Shown here: one piece after another, positions 6,097 through 24,411 of the stretch
Layout of the letters: each line of letters starts with the position of its first letter
Position numbering within the stretch: the first letter of the stretch is position 1
Source of the DNA: a bacterium
GTDB lineage: Bacteria > Joyebacterota > Joyebacteria > Joyebacterales > Joyebacteraceae
NCBI GenBank assembly: GCA_025774245.1
Contig: JALGWI010000020.1
Location: 1-42,489, forward strand
Length of the DNA stretch: 42,489 nucleotides
Reading direction: 5' to 3'
Made by a program: the position numbers and the translations under genes
Notes under the pieces: model-generated
What the model was told of the DNA's origin: nothing
Database searches by the model: none
Seen by the model: the letters and a program-made list of their open reading frames with translations, nothing else

Positions 6097-7173
6097 CTAT
6101 CGATAGAGGCCCTTGAGGGTCGACCACGTCGTGTTCGTGGCGTTCTCCGGGGCTCCCGATGGGATGATCTCCGCCTCTCCCTCGTTGTTGTCGGGGTTCG
6201 TTTCGACGAGGCAGGGCTCATCACGCGATCCCGCGTTGATGAGAACCTGCACGAGCTGCTGGCCGTCGAACGGGATGGCGTTCGTGAGCGCCTGTCTGAG
6301 ACGGTACCGGCAGGCGCAGCGTGGACCGTAGTCCTGGATGGTCCAGCTCACGCACGTGCCTGACACGGTCGTGCCGTTGACGGTACGGTCTTCGCACGTC
6401 CCGTGGCAGCCGCCTTCCGGGTTGTCGAAGTAGCACGACTGCCAGGGGAAGTTCTCGACGATCCACGGAACGTCCGTCACGTAGATCCCGTCGATAAACA
6501 CGTCGACGTCCCCGCCGATACCGTACTCGTCCCCGAAGACGTAGGCGTCGATCGTGGCGTAGACGTAGAAGTACATCCCGTCCCACTCGACCTCGACAGT
6601 ATCGATGGCGTAGTCGAAGCACGGGGTCGGCAGCAGGATGTACGCGCCGTCGCGTCCCGGCCCCGTCACAACAACATCGTCGATGGGTATGAGCTCTCCC
6701 GGCGCCCCGTAGGCGCGGGCCTCGATCACGAGCCCGGTGTGTCCGTCGGTGACCGTCCACGAGTGCTCGACGATGTCCCACCCGATGCCGGAACTGTAGT
6801 CGGAGTTGCCGCCGGCGGACCCGTGGTGCGCGTTGACGTCCTCGGGATCGTCGTTCCAGTGGCCCCAGATCCGGGCCGACGGCGACCCCCCGGGGGTGTC
6901 GTCGTAACACCAGAACGAGGCCGTCACGACGTCACCGTCGCTGAGGTCCTTGATCCAGGCGAGGAAGACCTGCGGCGTTCCGGACGGAAGACTCTCCCCG
7001 ATCTCGAGCGCGCACGTGCCGCTGAACACCTCGGTCCGGCCGATCTGCCAGATGGGGTCACCGTACGTCCCCAACGGTACCTGGCACGATTCCCAACTGT
7101 AGGAAGACGTCTCCCCGAGAGCGATGACCGCGCAGAGGCAGATCACCGCGACTGCCACACCAATCCTCAGCAT
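6097..7173 (-). CDS. Secreted jelly-roll/CARDB-like protein with W-x-T-L-K-G-L-Y-R C-terminal tail
   Basis: 358 aa. Residues 1-20 are a clear Sec signal peptide (MLRIGVAVAVICLCAVIALG). Residues 25-170 have the repeating beta pattern and ending IDDVVVTG typical of carbohydrate-binding or MAM-like jelly rolls. Residues 185-340 look like a CARDB-type beta sandwich: long strands, several cysteines (CHGTCED, CACRYR) and NPDNNEGEAEI near the end. The last residues, TTWSTLKGLYR, closely match the tail of the unrelated secreted protein at 19822-20532. That suggests a C-terminal sorting or anchoring signal. The ATG has AAAGGAGGAGG just upstream. The gene stands alone between tamA and groL. I do not recognise a catalytic site, so a structural or adhesive role is inference. 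Confidence 0.8.
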   Translation of the reverse strand: MLRIGVAVAVICLCAVIALGETSSYSWESCQVPLGTYGDPIWQIGRTEVFSGTCALEIGESLPSGTPQVFLAWIKDLSDGDVVTASFWCYDDTPGGSPSARIWGHWNDDPEDVNAHHGSAGGNSDYSSGIGWDIVEHSWTVTDGHTGLVIEARAYGAPGELIPIDDVVVTGPGRDGAYILLPTPCFDYAIDTVEVEWDGMYFYVYATIDAYVFGDEYGIGGDVDVFIDGIYVTDVPWIVENFPWQSCYFDNPEGGCHGTCEDRTVNGTTVSGTCVSWTIQDYGPRCACRYRLRQALTNAIPFDGQQLVQVLINAGSRDEPCLVETNPDNNEGEAEIIPSGAPENATNTTWSTLKGLYR

Positions 7174-7297
7174 GGTTGCCTCCTCCTTTTCGGGTGGACG
7201 CAGCCACCCGGCTGCTGGTACCGCTATCAGACCTACCGGAGTGTATCATAGTAGACAGGAACTCGCAAGACTAAGTACTGCCATCGGAGGCAATACC

Positions 7298-7315
7298 TGA
7301 CTGTGCGGTCAGTCA
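7298..7315. terminator. Small hairpin between tamA and the secreted protein gene
   Basis: TGACTG/CAGTCA is a 6-bp perfect stem with a 6-nt loop, about 50 nt past the tamA stop. It is weak as a terminator. The remainder of the 7174-7365 gap shows only a TATGAT box (minus strand, 7246-7251) without a convincing -35 element. Confidence 0.3.
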
Positions 7316-7365
7316 CTTCGCTGTGCAGTCTGATGCGGTGGTGGGATGCGTGCGAAGAAGAGGGA

Positions 7366-9195
7366 TCAGAACTCCTGCCCGATCCCGAAGTAGAACTGCC
7401 AGGAGCCGTCGTTGTTGATCGGGTAGGCGACGTCGATGCGGATCGCGCCGATCCGGGTCAGGTAGCGGATGCCGGGGCCGGCGCCCACAGCGAGCTTCGA
7501 GAGATCGATCGTCGAGAGCTCCTCGTAGACCTGTCCGGCGTCCACGAAGACGACGAGCTGCCAGTTCCCGATCCCGCGAAACCGGATCTCGCCCTGGAGC
7601 TCGATCAGAGCGTTTCCGCCGGTCGGCGTCCCCGCGATGTCGACGGGGCCGAGCGAGTTTCTCGGGTAGCCGCGGACCGAGCCGTCCCCGCCGGCGAAGA
7701 AACGCTCGTTCACGGGGATCCCGCCCATCTCCTCCCACGGCCTGATCCACGCGAACCTCGTGAGGAGTGCTCCGAGCCTGCCGCCCCGGATGTCCCGGTA
7801 GCCTCGCCATTCGAGATTGGGCCGCATGAAGTCGTTCGTGCCGCCCAGGAGCGACGTCGCGAAGTCGACCCGAACCCGCGCGAACATGCCACGCTTGGCG
7901 TTCAGGATGTCGTCGCGCGTATCGTGCGTGCCGCCGACAAGGATACTAGACGTGTAGTTCGTCCCCACTTCGTGCTCGACATCATGCGACTCGTAGACGA
8001 CCGTCCGCTTGTACTCCAGTCCGGTGTCGAGTGTGAGCGTCTTCCTGAACTCCCTCGAGAAGATGACCGTGCCGCCCGTCGTTTCCCCAAGGTACGACAC
8101 CTCGTCGTCCCACGAGTAGCCGGCGAGGAGGCTCGCGGTCACCCTGTTGCCGAGGAACCAGGGGTCCGTCGCCAGGCCGTCGATCGATCGCCTGATCTTG
8201 CTGTACGTCCAATTGAGGCTCAGACGCAGTCCCTGGCCCTGGACGTTCCGGTTCGCGATCTCCCCGCCGACTGTGAGGCCGTCGATCGTGGCGTAGCCGA
8301 TGCGAACGTCGTAGTACCCGCTCGACCGCTCCCGGACGCGCACCATGAGACGCCGGAGGTCCTTCCCGCTGTCCTCGGGGGCCGGCTCCATCCAGACGGC
8401 GTTGAAGAGCCCGCTGCCGTAGATGGCGGCCTGGGACTCCCCGATCCTGACGGGGTCGAACGGGTCGCCTGGCTCGACGGTGAGCTCGCGTTCGACCACG
8501 TACCGCCTCGTCTTCTCCAGTCCGACGATCCGGATCTCGCTGATGGAGGCGGTGTCCCCCTCGACGATCTCGTACCGGATGCTCGCCGTCTTCGCCTCGT
8601 TGTCCCGCGAGATGTTCTGGGACGCGGTGGCATCGAGGTAGGATCCGCGGGCGTACGTCTGAAGGACGGCCCGGCCGTCGGAGGTGAGGTCGTCCGAAAC
8701 GAGGGGGCGCCCCGCACGAAGGACGGTCGCCTCGAGGAGCTCCTCATCCGAGATCTTCTCGTTCCCCTCGAACGTGATCGCCGAGACCGACCAGCGGCCA
8801 CCCTCGAAGACGCCGATCAGGATCTCGATCTCGAGACCGTCCTCGGAGAGCGCGAGGTCCTCCACGGCCACCTCCGCCTCGAAGAACCCCTGGCTCATGT
8901 AGTAGCGCTCGAGGTTCTCGAGGTCGCGGTCGAGGGTCTTCTCGTTGAAGTGCCGGATGCCGAAGAGCGTGCTCTCCTGTGTCTCCATGTAGAGGAGAAG
9001 CTCGTCGGATCCGAACGTCTCGTTGCCGACGAAGTGGATCTTCGTGACGATCTCGCCCAGGCGCGCGACGTTCTCGATGCGCCGCCCCTTCACCCAGGGC
9101 GGCGTCGCCGCCACGGCAGCGCCGCTGAAGCATACGAGGGCCGCCACGACGATCCCGGCGCGGAGCGCGCGAACGAGCGCGCGGCGGGCGGGCAC
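7366..9195 (-). CDS. tamA: Omp85 family outer membrane protein, TamA/BamA-like
   Basis: About 609 aa. From GTG 9195 the N-terminus is a good signal peptide (ARRALVRALRAGIVVAALVC, cleavage after SGAAVA). Residues about 35-270 contain POTRA-type repeats: VTKIHFVGNETFGSDELL, VSAITFEGNEKISDEELL and ISEIRIVGLEKTRRYVVERE. Residues 280-609 are an Omp85 16-strand barrel carrying the conserved loop-6 motif in GGDGSVRGYPRNSLGP, ending in the aromatic IGQEF. It would insert in the outer membrane and work with TamB in envelope biogenesis. The gene starts 10 bp after the tamB stop codon. An alternative ATG at 9243 would overlap tamB and spoil the signal peptide. BamA rather than TamA is possible from sequence alone; the neighbour decides. 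Confidence 0.88.
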   Translation of the reverse strand: MPARRALVRALRAGIVVAALVCFSGAAVAATPPWVKGRRIENVARLGEIVTKIHFVGNETFGSDELLLYMETQESTLFGIRHFNEKTLDRDLENLERYYMSQGFFEAEVAVEDLALSEDGLEIEILIGVFEGGRWSVSAITFEGNEKISDEELLEATVLRAGRPLVSDDLTSDGRAVLQTYARGSYLDATASQNISRDNEAKTASIRYEIVEGDTASISEIRIVGLEKTRRYVVERELTVEPGDPFDPVRIGESQAAIYGSGLFNAVWMEPAPEDSGKDLRRLMVRVRERSSGYYDVRIGYATIDGLTVGGEIANRNVQGQGLRLSLNWTYSKIRRSIDGLATDPWFLGNRVTASLLAGYSWDDEVSYLGETTGGTVIFSREFRKTLTLDTGLEYKRTVVYESHDVEHEVGTNYTSSILVGGTHDTRDDILNAKRGMFARVRVDFATSLLGGTNDFMRPNLEWRGYRDIRGGRLGALLTRFAWIRPWEEMGGIPVNERFFAGGDGSVRGYPRNSLGPVDIAGTPTGGNALIELQGEIRFRGIGNWQLVVFVDAGQVYEELSTIDLSKLAVGAGPGIRYLTRIGAIRIDVAYPINNDGSWQFYFGIGQEF

Positions 9196-9205
9196 GCCCG
9201 GCCCG

Positions 9206-12200
9206 CTACTTGAATGGAACGCGCAGACTGAGATTGACACCATGATTCCCGGTGGGGTCGGCCACCGTGCCGACCCAGATGTAGTTGTGCAGCCTGACAG
9301 AGAACTCGATCTTGCCCATCTCGGCCTTCCCGACCTCCATCGTGTAGTCGATGCGGAAGTCCTCACCGAACCTCTTCCCGACGGTGAGGTCGGTGTTCGT
9401 GAGGTCGCCGTCGGAGTCCGTGCTCTCCTCGAAGCGGACGGTGTCGAGGTTGAGCGCCCGCTCGAGTGTTGACTCAGCCACGCCGTAGACGCTGTTCGTG
9501 AAGGCCCGCCGCGCCACGTCGGTGAACGCGTCGGCCGAGGACCCGCCGAGCGTCCCCCCTTCGACGAGCGCACCGAACGTGTCGCCGAACGTGAGGAGAG
9601 AGATGATGTCCGGCGACGTCAGCTCGGGGAAGCTTTCGAGCTTCGGTACCGCCTCGTCGGTGAATCCCTTGTACTCGATCGACACGCTGTACCGCACCTG
9701 CTCCCGGTCTTCCGCGTCGGTGGTTCCGAAGAGGTCGACGTACGGGTCGCGCCGTCTCGGGTCGACGAATCCCACGCTCAGGCGCTCGAGCTCGAACTCG
9801 TGATCGAAGTAGGTGAAGCTCCCGCGGTCGGCGTAGATGGTGCCAGAGAGCTCCGGTCTCTGGAGCGTCCCTCCGGCGTGGATGTCGCCCTTGACCTCCA
9901 TCTTGGCGACGTTGCTGTCCACGTTGATCTTGTCCTCGATGGTGACGGTGAAATCGATGCCGACGTTGGCCCGGGGGTCGTCGGCCTCCTCCAGGGCGAT
10001 CCGGATCGGTCGCCGCTTCATCATGTCGCCCAGACCGAACGAGTACGTGACGTCCATCCGCTCGACCGTCACGGTGCCCTCGATCTGAGATCGCGCGGCG
10101 GACCCGGCCCAGGAGACGTTCCCCCCGAACACACCGTCGAACATGCGGTGAATCGCCAGGCGGGGCGAGTCGAGGGAGACCTGGAGCTGGAAGACGGTCT
10201 CCTCCGACGTCGCGCCAAGCTGGGCGAATCCTGTCGCCGAGACACCTCCGCTCCCCATCCGGGCCGAGGCGCGCTCCAGCGCGACGACGTGATCGGCGAG
10301 ATTGACATCGAGCTCGATGTCGCGGACCGCCTGCGACAGGTCGAAGCCCTCGAGCCGACCGCCCGTGAGCGTCGCTCTGCCCTCGACGTCCGGGAGGGAG
10401 GCCGGCCCCGTGACGGAGAGATCGACCTCGAGCTTGCCGCGCAGGCGAGTGATGTCGGACGGGAGCGGCCCGAGATCGTCGAGGCGGAACCCGTCGGAGA
10501 CGATCCTGAGGTCGAGCTCTGGGGATTCCTCCTCGTCGCTGCCGGCGCGGGTCGTGCGCTCGGCGGCCGGCGCGCCTGCGTCGGTCGCGGCATCCGTGCC
10601 GGTCGCGGCATCAGAGTCGCCCGGCGTCAGCCCCGGGAACGTGATCGTCCCGCTCGCCGCGATCGTCCCGTCGCCTCCGGCCAGCTCCGTCTTCCCGAGG
10701 TGCAGGACGCCGTCGGCGATGCTCCCGCTCCCCTCGAGGCGGTCGAGCCCCACGCCGTAGATGAGGGGCTTCTCGAAGGCCCAGGCGAACTCGGCCCTCG
10801 GGTCGGTGAAGTCCCCGGAGAGGGTCGCCGACAGATCGAGCATGCCCGAGAGCGCCGGGCCGAGTCCACGCGCGAACGAGCGCACGAGGTGGCCGGTGTC
10901 GACGTCCTCGGCCGTGATGGTGATGTCCGACCCGACGTCCCCGCCGACGACGCCCGCGACGCGGATACGACCGCCGTCGGGATCCCCGAGCACGCGCCGT
11001 TTGAGAACGTCGATGGCGAGCGTGTCGACCTCGATCTCTCCGCTCGCGAGGTCGAAGTTCATGGGCGCTCCGAGGGTGAACTCGACCCGGTCGAACACGA
11101 TCTTGAGCTTGTCGAAGCCGCCTCGCCCGTTCACCGAGGCCAGCGAGTCGGTCCGGCCGACGAGGAGCCCGGAGCCGTTGGCCACGATCGTCTTCCTGCC
11201 CCTCACGTTAGGCATGAACTCCGAGCCCATGTCGAGCACGAGATTATCGCACGCGAAGGAGATGCCGAACTCGCGCTCCGGGTCGAGCGAGAGAAACGAC
11301 AGCGAGTCGGCTTGGATCGGGATGGAGCCGTACGCCACGATGCTGCCGGAGGTCGGGCCGGTGCCGTCCACGGTGAACGTGAGGTCGGAGCGGTCGCTCT
11401 CGGCCTCAAGCGTGAACGAGTTGAACTCGAGGCCCCTGACGGAGAGCTGCCGCACGTCGACGTCGGCCTCGAAGACCGGGTCGTCGACGTTGCCGCGGAG
11501 GCTGAACCGCCCGTCGACCACCCCGCGGGGCGTGACCGGGAAGGCTTCGGGCGCGAGGGCGGCCACCGCCTCGAGGTCGAGCGCTTCGAGGCGCGCGACG
11601 ATGTCGACCGTCTCCTCGAAGTCGAAGCCGCCCGCGACGGTGAACGACCCCATCGACCCATCGAGCGCGACCTCCGAGACATGCACCGAGTCGGGCGCGA
11701 CGTCCACGACGAACGGCGCCTCGAGCTCCATCTGCTGTCCCCGGGCGTGGACGAGGAGATCGGTGACGAGCCCCTCGACGGAGTACGCGCCGCCGATCTC
11801 CCCCTCGAGCGTCGCGCGCGCGTTCACCGACCCGGACAGCTCGAGGAACTCGCGGAGCGAGTCGCTCACGACCCTCGCAAGCTCGAAATCGACCACGTCG
11901 GCCGTGAGCTGGTAGCGCTCGGTCTCCTCGAGCGTGGCTCTTCCGCGAACCGCCCCGTGGAACGCCCGGAGCGTCGCCGCGTAGTTGCCACGACTCCCCA
12001 CGACGTCGGCGAAGAGGGGGCCCATCTTGAGATCGCCGTACCGGAGATCGAGGAACGACGCGTAGGCGGAGAGCGAGTCGGTTCCCACCGCGAAGCTCAC
12101 GACGACGACGCCCGAGCCGGCGAGATCGGGCAGGTCGAGGACCGCTCCCGGGACGGAGAGGTCCATCGCCGTCAGGTAGACGTCCAGCTCGTGGATGCCG

Positions 12201-13543
12201 TCCTCAGCGAGCGGCGCGCTCGCCTCGACCAGCGTGGCGCAGCACGTGCCCTCGATGGAGAGCAGCCCCTCCTCCGCCTCTCCCGTGAGGTCGACATTCC
12301 CGAGCGATGTGTCGCCTATGGAGAGGCCGCCGATCGAGGCCTCGATCTCGCCGGTGAGGTCGACGACGGAGGCGCTCTCGGAGCCGAGAAGAACGCGGGC
12401 GTCCACGACGCCCGCGAGGCCGGGTCCCTCCTCGAGCATCGTCGCCTCGAAGCGCGCCAGGTCGAGCCCCTCGATCCGCGCGCGGGCCGTGAACCCGGCG
12501 TCGGCTTCGCCGGCGGGGAACTCGTAGACCCCGGACGCCTCGACGGCCGCCCCGAGCACGGCGGCCGAGAGCGACTCGATCTCGAGCGCGTCGAGGTCGC
12601 CCGCGAGCATCGCCGCGAGATCCTCGACGTCGATCCCGACGGCGTCGATCGAGCCGGCGCGGACCTCGCCCCGGTACGCGAGCGCGTCGACCGGTCCCGC
12701 AAGGCTGCCGGACACCTGGAGGTCACCGGAGAGATCCTCGATGCCCGCGAGCGCGGCGGCAGCGGTGAGATCGAGCGAGGCGTTCGCGCGCGCGTCCAGC
12801 CGGGGCGGGGCGTCCTCGGCCGCGGGGAGGACGAGCTCGCCGTCGCCCTCGATCTCCCCCACGTTCGTCCGGACCATGAGCGACGTCGCGGCGAAGCGCT
12901 CCCCGTCGCCCTCGAGCGCGGCGGAGAGGTCTCCGAGGAGCGGGGCGACGAGGCTCCCGTGGTCGACGCGGATCGACCCCGTGACTGCGCCCTCGAAGTC
13001 ATCGGGCCCGCCGGTCGCCTCGAGATCGAGGCCCGTCACGTCGATCGAGGTACCGGTCGCGCTGTCGGCGAAGACGACGTGCCAGTTCGAGAGCTCGACG
13101 GCCGCGTCGATCGTCCAGGGCTCGCCCGGCTCGTCCTCGTCGGTCGTGTCCGGGTCGGCGCCGAGAGCCGACCAGCCGACGAACTTGCCGTCGCGCCCCC
13201 GCACGATCAGAAGCTCCGCGTCCTCGACGCGGAGCGTGGGAACATCGAGCCTCCTCCCCAGGAGTTCCAGGAGGCTGTAGTGCATCTCGATCTTGCTGGC
13301 GGTGAAGACGGGCGAGCCGTCGGGAGCAGCGAGCGTGAGATCATCGAGCGTGGCGTTCCAGAGGAGGTTCCCGCGAAGCGCCCCGATCGCGAGATCGAGG
13401 CCGGTCGCGTCCGAGGCGGCATCCTCGACCAACCCGGAGGCGAGGCCCCAACCGACGGGCGTGGCGACGAGGACGAACACGAGCGCCGCCAGAAGGCCGA
13501 CAATGCCGACCGCTATGATAGTGACGCGAAGACCGGTTCTCAA
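9206..13543 (-). CDS. tamB: TamB/YtfN-like translocation and assembly module protein (AsmA-like)
   Basis: 1445 aa, the giant size expected for TamB, a periplasm-spanning beta-taco protein anchored in the inner membrane and implicated in lipid transport and outer-membrane protein assembly. Residues 1-30 form one signal-anchor helix (TIIAVGIVGLLAALVFVLVA). Most of the rest is repetitive beta structure (AsmA/DUF490-like, e.g. DGSPVFTASKIEMHYSLLEL). The last 300 residues hold the TamB C-terminal domain, including LSGTIYADRGSFTYFDHEF and PELTSPDIISLLTFGDTF. An acidic/Ala-rich, Glu/Asp-rich linker lies around residues 975-1020. It begins at TTG 13543, with GGGAGG 8 nt upstream. That ribosome site can be sequestered by the leader (13547-13593). 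tamA follows after 10 bp. Confidence 0.92.
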   Translation of the reverse strand: MRTGLRVTIIAVGIVGLLAALVFVLVATPVGWGLASGLVEDAASDATGLDLAIGALRGNLLWNATLDDLTLAAPDGSPVFTASKIEMHYSLLELLGRRLDVPTLRVEDAELLIVRGRDGKFVGWSALGADPDTTDEDEPGEPWTIDAAVELSNWHVVFADSATGTSIDVTGLDLEATGGPDDFEGAVTGSIRVDHGSLVAPLLGDLSAALEGDGERFAATSLMVRTNVGEIEGDGELVLPAAEDAPPRLDARANASLDLTAAAALAGIEDLSGDLQVSGSLAGPVDALAYRGEVRAGSIDAVGIDVEDLAAMLAGDLDALEIESLSAAVLGAAVEASGVYEFPAGEADAGFTARARIEGLDLARFEATMLEEGPGLAGVVDARVLLGSESASVVDLTGEIEASIGGLSIGDTSLGNVDLTGEAEEGLLSIEGTCCATLVEASAPLAEDGIHELDVYLTAMDLSVPGAVLDLPDLAGSGVVVVSFAVGTDSLSAYASFLDLRYGDLKMGPLFADVVGSRGNYAATLRAFHGAVRGRATLEETERYQLTADVVDFELARVVSDSLREFLELSGSVNARATLEGEIGGAYSVEGLVTDLLVHARGQQMELEAPFVVDVAPDSVHVSEVALDGSMGSFTVAGGFDFEETVDIVARLEALDLEAVAALAPEAFPVTPRGVVDGRFSLRGNVDDPVFEADVDVRQLSVRGLEFNSFTLEAESDRSDLTFTVDGTGPTSGSIVAYGSIPIQADSLSFLSLDPEREFGISFACDNLVLDMGSEFMPNVRGRKTIVANGSGLLVGRTDSLASVNGRGGFDKLKIVFDRVEFTLGAPMNFDLASGEIEVDTLAIDVLKRRVLGDPDGGRIRVAGVVGGDVGSDITITAEDVDTGHLVRSFARGLGPALSGMLDLSATLSGDFTDPRAEFAWAFEKPLIYGVGLDRLEGSGSIADGVLHLGKTELAGGDGTIAASGTITFPGLTPGDSDAATGTDAATDAGAPAAERTTRAGSDEEESPELDLRIVSDGFRLDDLGPLPSDITRLRGKLEVDLSVTGPASLPDVEGRATLTGGRLEGFDLSQAVRDIELDVNLADHVVALERASARMGSGGVSATGFAQLGATSEETVFQLQVSLDSPRLAIHRMFDGVFGGNVSWAGSAARSQIEGTVTVERMDVTYSFGLGDMMKRRPIRIALEEADDPRANVGIDFTVTIEDKINVDSNVAKMEVKGDIHAGGTLQRPELSGTIYADRGSFTYFDHEFELERLSVGFVDPRRRDPYVDLFGTTDAEDREQVRYSVSIEYKGFTDEAVPKLESFPELTSPDIISLLTFGDTFGALVEGGTLGGSSADAFTDVARRAFTNSVYGVAESTLERALNLDTVRFEESTDSDGDLTNTDLTVGKRFGEDFRIDYTMEVGKAEMGKIEFSVRLHNYIWVGTVADPTGNHGVNLSLRVPFK

Positions 13544-19821: not shown

Positions 19822-20532
19822 ATGGTCACGAAGGCTATCGTTGCACTCGCCGTGCTCCTCATGGCCGCCGTCCCGGCCGGCGCGAGGGTTGCTGAGACGC
19901 AGCCGCTCTCGAGCAAGGCGGTCCATCTGACCGTCGACGACTGGAGGGACGCGGACAACCTCTGCACCGCCGGCAACACCGGTTACTACTGGACCGTCGG
20001 CGACTGGTTCACGGGGAACGAGTCGTACAGGATCTACTGCGATCCCGGGGACTGCGCCAGCTGTCCCGAAGGCTGGTCCCCCAGAAGTGTGACCATCTAC
20101 CTCTACTGGGACGTCGAGAACACGTGCGCCCTGAGCGTGAGCGCTTCGATCGAGCTCATCGACAACACCGACCCGGAGTGCCCGATGCCGGGGCCGACGG
20201 TCTGCCAGTCGGAGCCGTCGACGGTCGGACCGTTCAGCCCCGCCGGGCTGTGGGCGGTCACCATCCCGCTCCCCGACACCTGCTCGTCGCTCGAGGATCC
20301 GTTCTTCGCGGCGCTCCACTTCCATGACACTTGCGCGAGCCTTCCCGTGCTCATCACCGACACCGGCCCCTGCGACGCGTGCGAGTCGTGGAACAACTGG
20401 GGCGCCGGATGGAGGCAGCTCTGCGAGTACGGGTTCCCGGGGAACCTGAGCCTCCACGCGACGATCGAGTGCGAGGGTGGCACGCCGGTCGAGGATGCGT
20501 CCTGGGGAACGATCAAAGGCAAGTACAGATAA
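19822..20532 (+). CDS. Small Cys-rich secreted protein with W-G-T-I-K-G-K-Y-R C-terminal tail
   Basis: 236 aa of unknown family. Residues 1-22 are a Sec signal peptide (KAIVALAVLLMAAVPAGA). The body is rich in aromatic residues and cysteines, in pairs such as CDPGDCASCPEG, CPMPGPTVC and CDACESWNNWG, suggesting several disulfides in a beta-rich fold. It ends in ASWGTIKGKYR directly before the stop, sharing W-x-T-[IL]-K-G-x-Y-R with the secreted protein at 6097-7173 although the rest of the two proteins is unalike. ATG 19822 has GAGGAGGG upstream; an in-frame TTG at 19804 is less likely. The gene is flanked by strong hairpins downstream and is a single-gene unit. I assign no function. Confidence 0.8.
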   Translation: MVTKAIVALAVLLMAAVPAGARVAETQPLSSKAVHLTVDDWRDADNLCTAGNTGYYWTVGDWFTGNESYRIYCDPGDCASCPEGWSPRSVTIYLYWDVENTCALSVSASIELIDNTDPECPMPGPTVCQSEPSTVGPFSPAGLWAVTIPLPDTCSSLEDPFFAALHFHDTCASLPVLITDTGPCDACESWNNWGAGWRQLCEYGFPGNLSLHATIECEGGTPVEDASWGTIKGKYR

Positions 20533-22314: not shown

Positions 22315-22392
22315 AGACTGTAGGTACTAAATCGAACAGCCACTGAAACTCCGCCTCCGGCCGTCAAGAGCCGGTGGGTGAGGGAGGTAACG

Positions 22393-24411
22393 ATGTTCGG
22401 AACCACCAGGTTCGGCCCGGTTCTCGCCGTGGCCGTGCTCGCACTGATCGTCGGGTCGGCGGCCCTCGCCGGGGCGTCCCGTGTCGAGGATGTGCCTGGA
22501 AACGGGAGTGACTCCCACAGGATCCTGTGGGAACCGAAGCAGAGGGCTTTCGAGCGTTTGCAGCAGGCGATGGCTCTTCCACCGGACGCCGACCGTGCGT
22601 CTCAGGACGATTTCGACGTCACCTTCTACGACATCGACATTTCCATCTCTCCCTCGTCCGAGACGATCAGCGGGGTGGTGACGATGCGGGCGACGAGCGT
22701 CGTCGACGGGCTCGCGACCGTCATCCTCAATCTGTATGACAACATGACGGTCACCTCGGTTACAGGAAATCCGTCGCCCCTCTCCTACACGCACGCCGAC
22801 AACAAGGTCACGGTGACCCTCGACCCCGCGCTCGACACGGGCGAAAGTTTCGAGGTGACGGTCGAGTACAACGGCTCGCCGGCAGGATACGCCTTCAGAT
22901 TCAACTATCACAGTGGAACGGCGATCGCCTCGACACTCTCGGAGCCCGACGGCTCGCGCGAGTGGTGGCCGTGCAAGGACACGCCGGCCGACAAGGCCGA
23001 CTCCGCGCGGATCGCCTTCACGGTGCCCGACGACTTCTTCGCCGCTTCTGAGGGAACGCTCATGTCGACGACCGACAACGGGGACGGCACGATCACGTAC
23101 CGGTGGTACGAGTCGTATCCGATCACGACCTACCTCGTCTCGGTCGCCGCCACGAACTACGTCTCCTTCACCGACTACTACCACTGCGGCCGCGCCGACT
23201 CGATGCCGATCACGAACTTCGTCTACCCCGAGGACCTCGAGGACGCGCTCATCGACCTCGACATCACCGCCGACGCCATCGGTTACCTCGCCTCGATCTA
23301 CGGTGAGTATCCGTTCCTCGCCGAGAAGTACGGGCACGCCGAGTTCCCGTGGGGCGGCGCGATGGAGCATCAGACCTGCACGAGCTACGGCGCGATCCTC
23401 TTCACCGGAACCCACTACTACGACTGGGTGCTCATCCACGAGCTGGCGCACCAGTGGTGGGGCGACTGGGTCACCTGCCACACCTGGGACGACATCTGGC
23501 TCAACGAGGGCTTCGCGACCTACTCGGAGATGCTCTGGTTCGAGCACCTCTACGGGTTCGAGTACTACAAGGACCGCATGCTGGACTACGACAACGGGCC
23601 TTACGAGGGACCCATCTACGACCCGCTGCAGACGTTCAGCTCGGTGGTCTACTCGAAGGGCGCGTGGGCGCTCCATATGCTGCGCCACGTCCTCGGCGGC
23701 CGCGAGGAGTTCCTCGACGTTCTCGAGACCTACAGCGCGGCGCACGCTTACGGGACCGCTACGACCGCCGAGTTCCAGGAGGCCGCGGAGGCGATCTACG
23801 GCTCTTCGCTCGACTGGTTCTTCCTCCCGTGGATCTACGGTGAGAACCGGCCCTCGTACGAGTACGCGTGGGTCGCGAGCGACGCCGGCGACCACTGGAA
23901 CGTCATGCTCCACGTCGATCAGGTGCAGGACGACGCCGGGCTCTTCACGATGCCAATCGACATCCGGCTCCTGACGACCGGGGGCGACACGACGATCGTC
24001 GTCTGGAACGACCAGTGGAGCCAGGACTTCTTCCTGACCGTCGACGCGCAGCCGATCGATCTCCTGTTCGACCCAGACGACTGGATTCTGAAGTACCTCG
24101 GTGAGGGCACCGGGATCGCCGATCCCGAGGCCGTGGCGGCGCTCTCGCTCGCCGCCGCAACGAACCCGTTCGCGGTGAGCACGCGGCTCGTCTACAGCCT
24201 GCCCTCCGCGGGTCGTGTCCGGCTCGCCGTCTACGACATCGCCGGCCGGCTGGTGAACGATCTGGTCGATCGTGACGCGCCCGCCGGCGCGCACGAGGTC
24301 GTGTGGAACGGGACGGGGTCGCGAGGTGCTGCGGTCGCGAGCGGGATCTACTTCGCGCGACTGACCACGGAAGAGGGCGCAGCGTCGCAGAAGCTCCTGT
24401 ACATGCGATAG
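22393..24411 (+). CDS. Secreted M1 family aminopeptidase with FlgD-like C-terminal sorting domain
   Basis: 672 aa. A signal peptide covers residues 1-27. An N-terminal beta domain (75-250) precedes the thermolysin-like catalytic domain. The substrate-binding GAMEN-type motif is GGAMEHQTC. Zinc ligands are HELAH at 349-353 and Glu 372 in LNEGFATYSEM, the exact HExxH-18-E spacing of the M1 (gluzincin) family. Residues about 580-672 form a FlgD-Ig-like domain (LVYSLPSAGRVRLAVYDIAG ... SGIYFARL) ending in KLLYMR. This is the type of C-terminal domain carried by exported proteins of FCB-group bacteria. It is predicted to digest peptides outside the cell or on its surface. ATG 22393 has GGGAGGT 5 nt upstream. 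It is a single-gene unit with its own promoter and terminator. Confidence 0.94.
   Translation: MFGTTRFGPVLAVAVLALIVGSAALAGASRVEDVPGNGSDSHRILWEPKQRAFERLQQAMALPPDADRASQDDFDVTFYDIDISISPSSETISGVVTMRATSVVDGLATVILNLYDNMTVTSVTGNPSPLSYTHADNKVTVTLDPALDTGESFEVTVEYNGSPAGYAFRFNYHSGTAIASTLSEPDGSREWWPCKDTPADKADSARIAFTVPDDFFAASEGTLMSTTDNGDGTITYRWYESYPITTYLVSVAATNYVSFTDYYHCGRADSMPITNFVYPEDLEDALIDLDITADAIGYLASIYGEYPFLAEKYGHAEFPWGGAMEHQTCTSYGAILFTGTHYYDWVLIHELAHQWWGDWVTCHTWDDIWLNEGFATYSEMLWFEHLYGFEYYKDRMLDYDNGPYEGPIYDPLQTFSSVVYSKGAWALHMLRHVLGGREEFLDVLETYSAAHAYGTATTAEFQEAAEAIYGSSLDWFFLPWIYGENRPSYEYAWVASDAGDHWNVMLHVDQVQDDAGLFTMPIDIRLLTTGGDTTIVVWNDQWSQDFFLTVDAQPIDLLFDPDDWILKYLGEGTGIADPEAVAALSLAAATNPFAVSTRLVYSLPSAGRVRLAVYDIAGRLVNDLVDRDAPAGAHEVVWNGTGSRGAAVASGIYFARLTTEEGAASQKLLYMR

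Follow-up and report, generated by a model that had tools for sequence, protein, structure and literature searches.

The closest described systems are the C-terminal domains (CTDs) of T9SS substrates, of which types A and B have been described together with the PorV and PorP/SprF shuttles (PMC12618676). For HBP35, secretion is reported to need no more of the CTD than its last 22 residues, with the lysines of motif E being essential (PMC10202324). CTD proteins were called restricted to Bacteroidota in a 2023 review (PMC10202324). The window analyzed here is a 42,489-nucleotide stretch of DNA from a genome (G000; 3.23 Mb in 128 contigs) of the phylum Joyebacterota, hereafter the home phylum. It includes the genes for two exported proteins, named P0001 and P0002, that share a short C-terminal tail (Table 1). 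The initial annotation of the window had claimed that both end in a tail of the form W-x-T-[IL]-K-G-x-Y-R just before the stop codon, that both possess Sec signal peptides, that their bodies cannot be aligned, and that the differing codons exclude a recent DNA copy. These four claims held: the coordinates and ends were confirmed, both N-termini are of the Sec type, no match was found between the bodies, and codons vary freely among tail copies.

Table 1. Tail-bearing proteins and CTD-bearing aminopeptidase of the window, and a pair of β-helix paralogues from locus L062.
Feature	Coordinates	Strand	Basis	Description
P0001, tail-bearing exported protein, 358 aa	6097..7173	minus	translation	signal peptide, N-terminal β-rich domain (~24-185), second domain, C-terminal tail; ends NTTWSTLKGLYR-stop
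P0001 tail	6097..6147	minus	pattern match	last 16 residues ENATNTTWSTLKGLYR + stop
P0001 tail core	6097-6126	minus	pattern match	WSTLKGLYR + stop
P0002, tail-bearing exported protein, 236 aa	19822..20532	plus	translation	signal peptide, β-rich body, C-terminal tail; ends EDASWGTIKGKYR-stop
P0002 tail	20482..20532	plus	pattern match	last 16 residues TPVEDASWGTIKGKYR + stop
P0002 tail core	20503-20532	plus	pattern match	WGTIKGKYR + stop
M1-family aminopeptidase with terminal T9SS type A-like (FlgD_ig) domain	22378..24411	plus	Pfam PF01433, PF13860	..SGIYFARLTTEEGAASQKLLYMR
β-helix paralogue with tail	L062:8191-9360			G000; final 19 residues include the tail
β-helix paralogue with FlgD_ig CTD (~109 aa)	L062:6453-7862			G000

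P0001 matched nothing in Pfam or NCBIfam; its N-terminal domain is common to other tail proteins, and those homologues likewise finish with the tail. The tail is the sole part of P0002 that matches other proteins of the sample, and no relative of this protein was found among solved structures. The structure models of both proteins have low confidence overall, and the tail belongs to their least reliable regions: that of P0001 has a low pLDDT and is drawn as a short helix, and the last block of the P0002 model has a pLDDT of 23. The FlgD_ig end of the aminopeptidase, found in the same window, would represent the large signal that the short tail appears to replace in other proteins, as inferred from the comparisons described below. 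On the minus strand (6097-13543) a BamA-type Omp85 gene and a TamB gene immediately precede P0001, an arrangement whose bearing on the tail is not established.

The strict coded pattern followed by a stop codon was found 46 times in G000 and a slightly looser version 64 times; without the stop requirement the looser pattern gave 69 matches. The reversed-pattern control gave none in any of these searches, and therefore chance is excluded as the source of the matches. A stop codon directly follows 64 of the 69 coded occurrences (93%), while among the remaining five, two proteins end 2 and 8 residues later (YRNK-stop and YRRTDRPAHN-stop) and one copy is truly internal. Among 935 called proteins 158 motifs were exactly terminal, 4 were within 8 residues of the end and 1 was internal. 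The sole truly internal copy (SWGEIKGMYRDGVPQEK) is located at residue 118 of the 417 of L057:12972-14225 (contig C112 of G000) and is an apparent insertion relative to homologues; the tail present in its homologues is missing from the C-terminus of this protein.

A logo of 158 unique tails gave the consensus [ST]-P-V-E-x-x-[ST]-W-G-x-I-K-[A/G/S]-[L/M/I]-[Y/F]-R, with the core [ST]-W-G-x-[ILV]-K-[AGS]-x-[YF]-R-stop. The P-V-E stretch is mainly restricted to the home phylum; most tails of Krumholzibacteriota and Eisenbacteria retain [ST]-W-G-x-[ILV]-K-[S/A/G/T]-x-[Y/F]-R, preceded by different residues. The T at position 3 and the G at position 6, included in the motif of the initial annotation, failed as general features and are peculiar to the P0001/P0002 pair, and the terminal R, taken there as fixed, held only in part: it is usual, but proteins ending in YRNK, YQIRR, YASE and YH occur. 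The invariance of W and K among members found by pattern is due in part to the search pattern, which requires both; the two residues are also present in tail genes from loci picked for other reasons. In one lipoprotein-type family (L041:7677-9778 and L038:8676-10222) the tail is intact, degenerate or lost among paralogues, with the variants SWSWGKLKAAFR, TSVGRIKSRYLE, TWGVLRGDYRS and SSLSELKSSQR. No Pfam or NCBIfam model searched matched the tail. Neither the motif nor a T9SS in these phyla was found in the literature searched, which given its open-access scope is weak evidence of novelty.

The tail is borne by at least 56 unrelated body families, including β-helices and lamin-tail, CBM20, PKD and choice-of-anchor V domains. 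Among the 159 tail proteins that were intact at the 5′ end, a home-made scorer identified a Sec signal peptide in 124 and a lipobox-like sequence in 14 more, for a total of 138. In the G000 sample a signal peptide was scored in 84% of the tail genes vs about 40% of other genes. A TM-like segment within the last 45 residues was found in only 1% of 198 tails. Lipoprotein-type carriers include L041:8329-8958 and others in L095 and L098. It should be taken into account that these gene-level counts were drawn from sequence stretches, mostly picked around tail genes, and not from whole genomes. An Eisenbacteria genome harbors nine tandem tail genes of ~230-260 amino acids each (L214:4202-12127, contig C94 of G138).

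The initial annotation had proposed that the tail is a sorting, processing or anchoring signal, which would find support in a motif exactly at the C-terminus of many signal-peptide proteins and would be refuted by a motif that is part of a conserved globular domain. The former came out in favor, and the latter was not borne out, considering the at least 56 body families and the low pLDDT of the tail in both low-confidence models. The proposal is thus supported as regards a C-terminal signal, while sorting, processing and anchoring themselves remain inferences. That the tail is such a signal is nearly certain, and the claim of a sorting tail is about as secure as an inference from sequence alone permits. 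Two other explanations can be considered at this point. The tail could have no sorting role and merely form the end of a globular domain, or else be a DNA repeat that has spread; the shared sequence alone and the one internal copy speak for it, and the unrelated bodies, the freely differing codons and the low model confidence of the tail leave it practically ruled out. It could also be a tag for periplasmic quality control or degradation, an idea supported only by its shortness, terminal position and probable exposure. A degron would not be expected to be strictly conserved across at least 56 families, many of them in tandem arrays, or to be swapped for a secretion domain in homologues (see below); we regard this explanation as very improbable.

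All 20 genomes of the home phylum, which represent one family and eight genera, include the tail in 19 to 66 copies, with no more than one control match each. Several of these genomes are MAGs deposited as Candidatus Eisenbacteria, as shown by identical contig coordinates. When about 85,000 species genomes were scanned with the tail in a single codon version, 36 stretches were identified in 24 genomes, the labels of which include Eisenbacteria, Krumholzibacteriota/Krumholzibacteriia and Gemmatimonadota/Gemmatimonadetes; all 24 harbor 4 to 55 tail copies, with no control matches. The codon version used favors GC-rich genomes, and therefore absence elsewhere has not been demonstrated. The tail was also found in 59 of 80 Krumholzibacteriota genomes and in 36 of 47 Eisenbacteria genomes, again with no control matches in either group.

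Comparison of homologous proteins revealed that the tail and the T9SS CTD replace each other. In the part of G000 that was sampled, 17 of 53 non-tail secreted proteins possess FlgD_ig, which is absent from all 43 tail proteins. A short protein, L053:8375-8836, includes a FlgD-like segment before an extended tail, as judged by eye, and the exclusion may be incomplete. The two β-helix paralogues of L062 are neighbors, divergently transcribed and 38% identical up to the sequence GAHGGGC/GARGVGC, after which one continues into the tail and the other into the CTD. The choice-of-anchor V proteins of G000 (L045:9134-9739 and 9784-10389) finish in the tail, and their Krumholzibacteriota homologues have full type A CTDs (e.g. 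..NFPNPFNPRT..SGTYFYRLQAGSVDQTRSMVLVR-stop) wherever the right-frame end was read. In all, three body families contain both endings, the third of them with 17 tail and 31 CTD members linked via shared domains; L118:467-1759 and L111:5052-5609 were classed as tail variants and not as CTD proteins. The CTDs of these genomes finish in [KR][ML][VT][LV][LVM][RK]-stop. Tail genes were weakly enriched beside CTD genes (18% vs 7-9%, p = 0.01 to 0.07), an enrichment not seen in other samples. Since tail and CTD swap at the same junction in homologues, a link between the tail and the T9SS is supported; the swap is equally compatible with alternative fates and with an equivalent signal.

As for the machinery itself, SprA was found in 19 of 20 home-phylum genomes, 77 of 80 Krumholzibacteriota genomes and all 24 genomes identified by the scan, and in none of 14 controls. 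PorU scored above its curated cut-off in 15 of the 20 home-phylum genomes, all of which have the PorV family (7 to 12 members each), and the genes for PorU, PorV and an M6-like T9SS protein are co-located. SprA is nearly universal in Krumholzibacteriota, Eisenbacteria and the home phylum despite the reported restriction of CTD proteins to Bacteroidota. The presence of SprA was rejected as a discriminating profile, as it is nearly universal in tail-poor and tail-free genomes too, Krumholzibacteriota being the example. Because nearly all genomes possess SprA, whether tail-rich or tail-free, the co-occurrence possibly reflects shared ancestry, and it supports the T9SS link but cannot decide it. 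The PorV/PorQ family is much expanded in the home phylum (e.g. G000:C15:86370-88397 and members on C30, C24 and C53), and its syntenic subfamilies adjoin different CTD proteins there.

One member of this family, the PorV/PorQ-family paralogue L041:10836-11747 (NF033709, 213 bits with a cut-off of 90), is a candidate partner. Paralogues of this type are encoded divergently beside tail genes in five of eight regions (G000, G002, G005, G010 and G016); in three genomes of genus g5 the nearest tail gene is ~5 kb away and does not adjoin the paralogue. No tail gene was near the other PorV subfamilies in any of 13 regions, nor near three PorU-PorV loci, and several of these regions have CTD genes beside PorV instead. 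No PorV-like gene was present in 19 regions of Krumholzibacteriota and Eisenbacteria picked around tails, some of which had poor or missing gene calls. The PorV neighborhood of tail genes is one conserved locus of the home phylum, and the tail genes found there are partly of the lipoprotein type, unusual for T9SS cargo. The initial annotation had also anticipated co-distribution with one membrane enzyme or secretion gene; partners are suggested, the T9SS translocon and one PorV-family paralogue, but remain unproven.

Another conserved cluster, present in most home-phylum genera, includes a C25 peptidase with propeptide and FlgD_ig together with one to five tail genes. It was found at L139:2284-14897 as well as in L137, L140-L142, L145, L146, L153, L154 and L156, and comprises small tail-bearing secreted proteins, an UshA-like multihaem cytochrome protein, the gingipain-like C25 peptidase, and glycolate-oxidase-like FAD and CCG proteins. 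The tail could in this light be mainly a processing tag, at which a C25 peptidase, either PorU or the gingipain-like paralogue, would cleave the protein and attach it to a surface sugar, in the way that PorU processes CTDs. This clustering and the presence of PorU proper favor such a role. Against it, the cytochrome/UshA-like and glycolate-oxidase-like genes of the cluster make an incidental link possible, the paralogue scores below the PorU cut-off (269 vs 420 bits) and might itself be a protease cargo, and no strong match to it was found in G000. A processing tag is unlikely as the main function, although it is compatible with the explanation that we favor and both could hold. The C25/PorU-like cluster as a dedicated tail enzyme was rejected on account of redox genes of no obvious relation and the lack of a strong match in G000.

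The position of the tail, its spread, the export signals of its carriers, its replacement of the CTD in homologues and the presence of SprA, PorU and PorV are shown. The explanation that we favor, by a modest margin and with T9SS dependence and secretion both inferred, is that the tail serves as a C-terminal sorting signal, short and linear, that acts via the T9SS in place of the CTD. Sec would export the tail protein to the periplasm by means of the signal peptide seen in the sequence; the tail would then be recognized as an alternative to the Ig-like CTD of T9SS substrates, and the protein would cross the outer membrane through SprA, with a PorV/PorQ-family barrel collecting it. The role of motif E, the last motif of a type A CTD, would be fulfilled without the Ig carrier by the invariant Lys, the hydrophobic residues and the terminal Arg of the tail. 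The proposal leaves undecided whether the tail is later cleaved or retained as an anchor.

It is also possible that the tail sorts or anchors proteins by a pathway other than the T9SS, such that CTD homologues use the T9SS and tail homologues go elsewhere, e.g. docked to an outer-membrane barrel or to a matrix. The swap data suit different destinations as well as one, the lipoprotein-type carriers and the adjoining PorV/PorQ-like barrel suit the docking of proteins that have already reached the outer membrane, and no tail enzyme has been identified. On the other hand, tails were found only in T9SS-bearing lineages, the CTD is replaced at the same junction, which points to the same machinery, and the candidate partner belongs to a T9SS barrel family. 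A bolder version of the T9SS explanation, slightly more likely to prove wrong than right, is that the tail defines an undescribed class of T9SS signal, in which a linear stretch of 9-16 residues, handled by a PorV/PorQ-family shuttle of its own, replaces a 100-residue CTD on a large share of the surface proteins in three or more candidate phyla other than Bacteroidota. If the T9SS explanation is true, export in some lineages would require just a short linear peptide. This would help to identify the portion of the large CTD that serves as the signal, would make it possible to infer the surface proteins of several uncultured phyla from sequence, and would provide a tag of nine residues for use in surface display. 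Even without the T9SS, the tail would be a phylum-spanning C-terminal sorting signal absent from the public family models searched.

With respect to known systems, the tail resembles those of PEP-CTERM/exosortase, MYXO-CTERM, GlyGly-CTERM/rhombosortase and LPXTG/sortase in that a short C-terminal homology recurs among unrelated secreted proteins, with choice-of-anchor V bodies in common. Unlike them, it has no transmembrane helix and its motif is at the very end and not before a membrane anchor; exosortase, rhombosortase, myxosortase and sortase tails were ruled out for lack of a TM segment and because no CTERM model matches the tail. The PorV/PorQ-family barrel gene that adjoins tail genes in the home phylum is a possible parallel to the PorP/SprF shuttles of type B CTDs (TIGR04131, PF13585). 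The tail differs from type B signals, which span 100-235 residues (PMC12618676), and only one paralogue adjoins the tail genes, with no such neighbor in the other phyla that were read. Type A CTDs (TIGR04183, PF18962; FlgD_ig PF13860) are Ig-like domains of ~70-100 amino acids, while the tail has ~9-16 residues, an invariant Trp and no Ig-like domain, and the type A models matched none of 43 tail proteins. As it is the case for type A CTDs, the tail is C-terminal, is found on diverse Sec-exported bodies, begins at the same junction in homologues, and has a conserved basic residue followed by hydrophobic residues and a terminal basic residue. Of the analogies drawn in the initial annotation, that with PEP-CTERM fails because of the near absence of TM-like segments at the C-terminus, and T9SS tails fit better.
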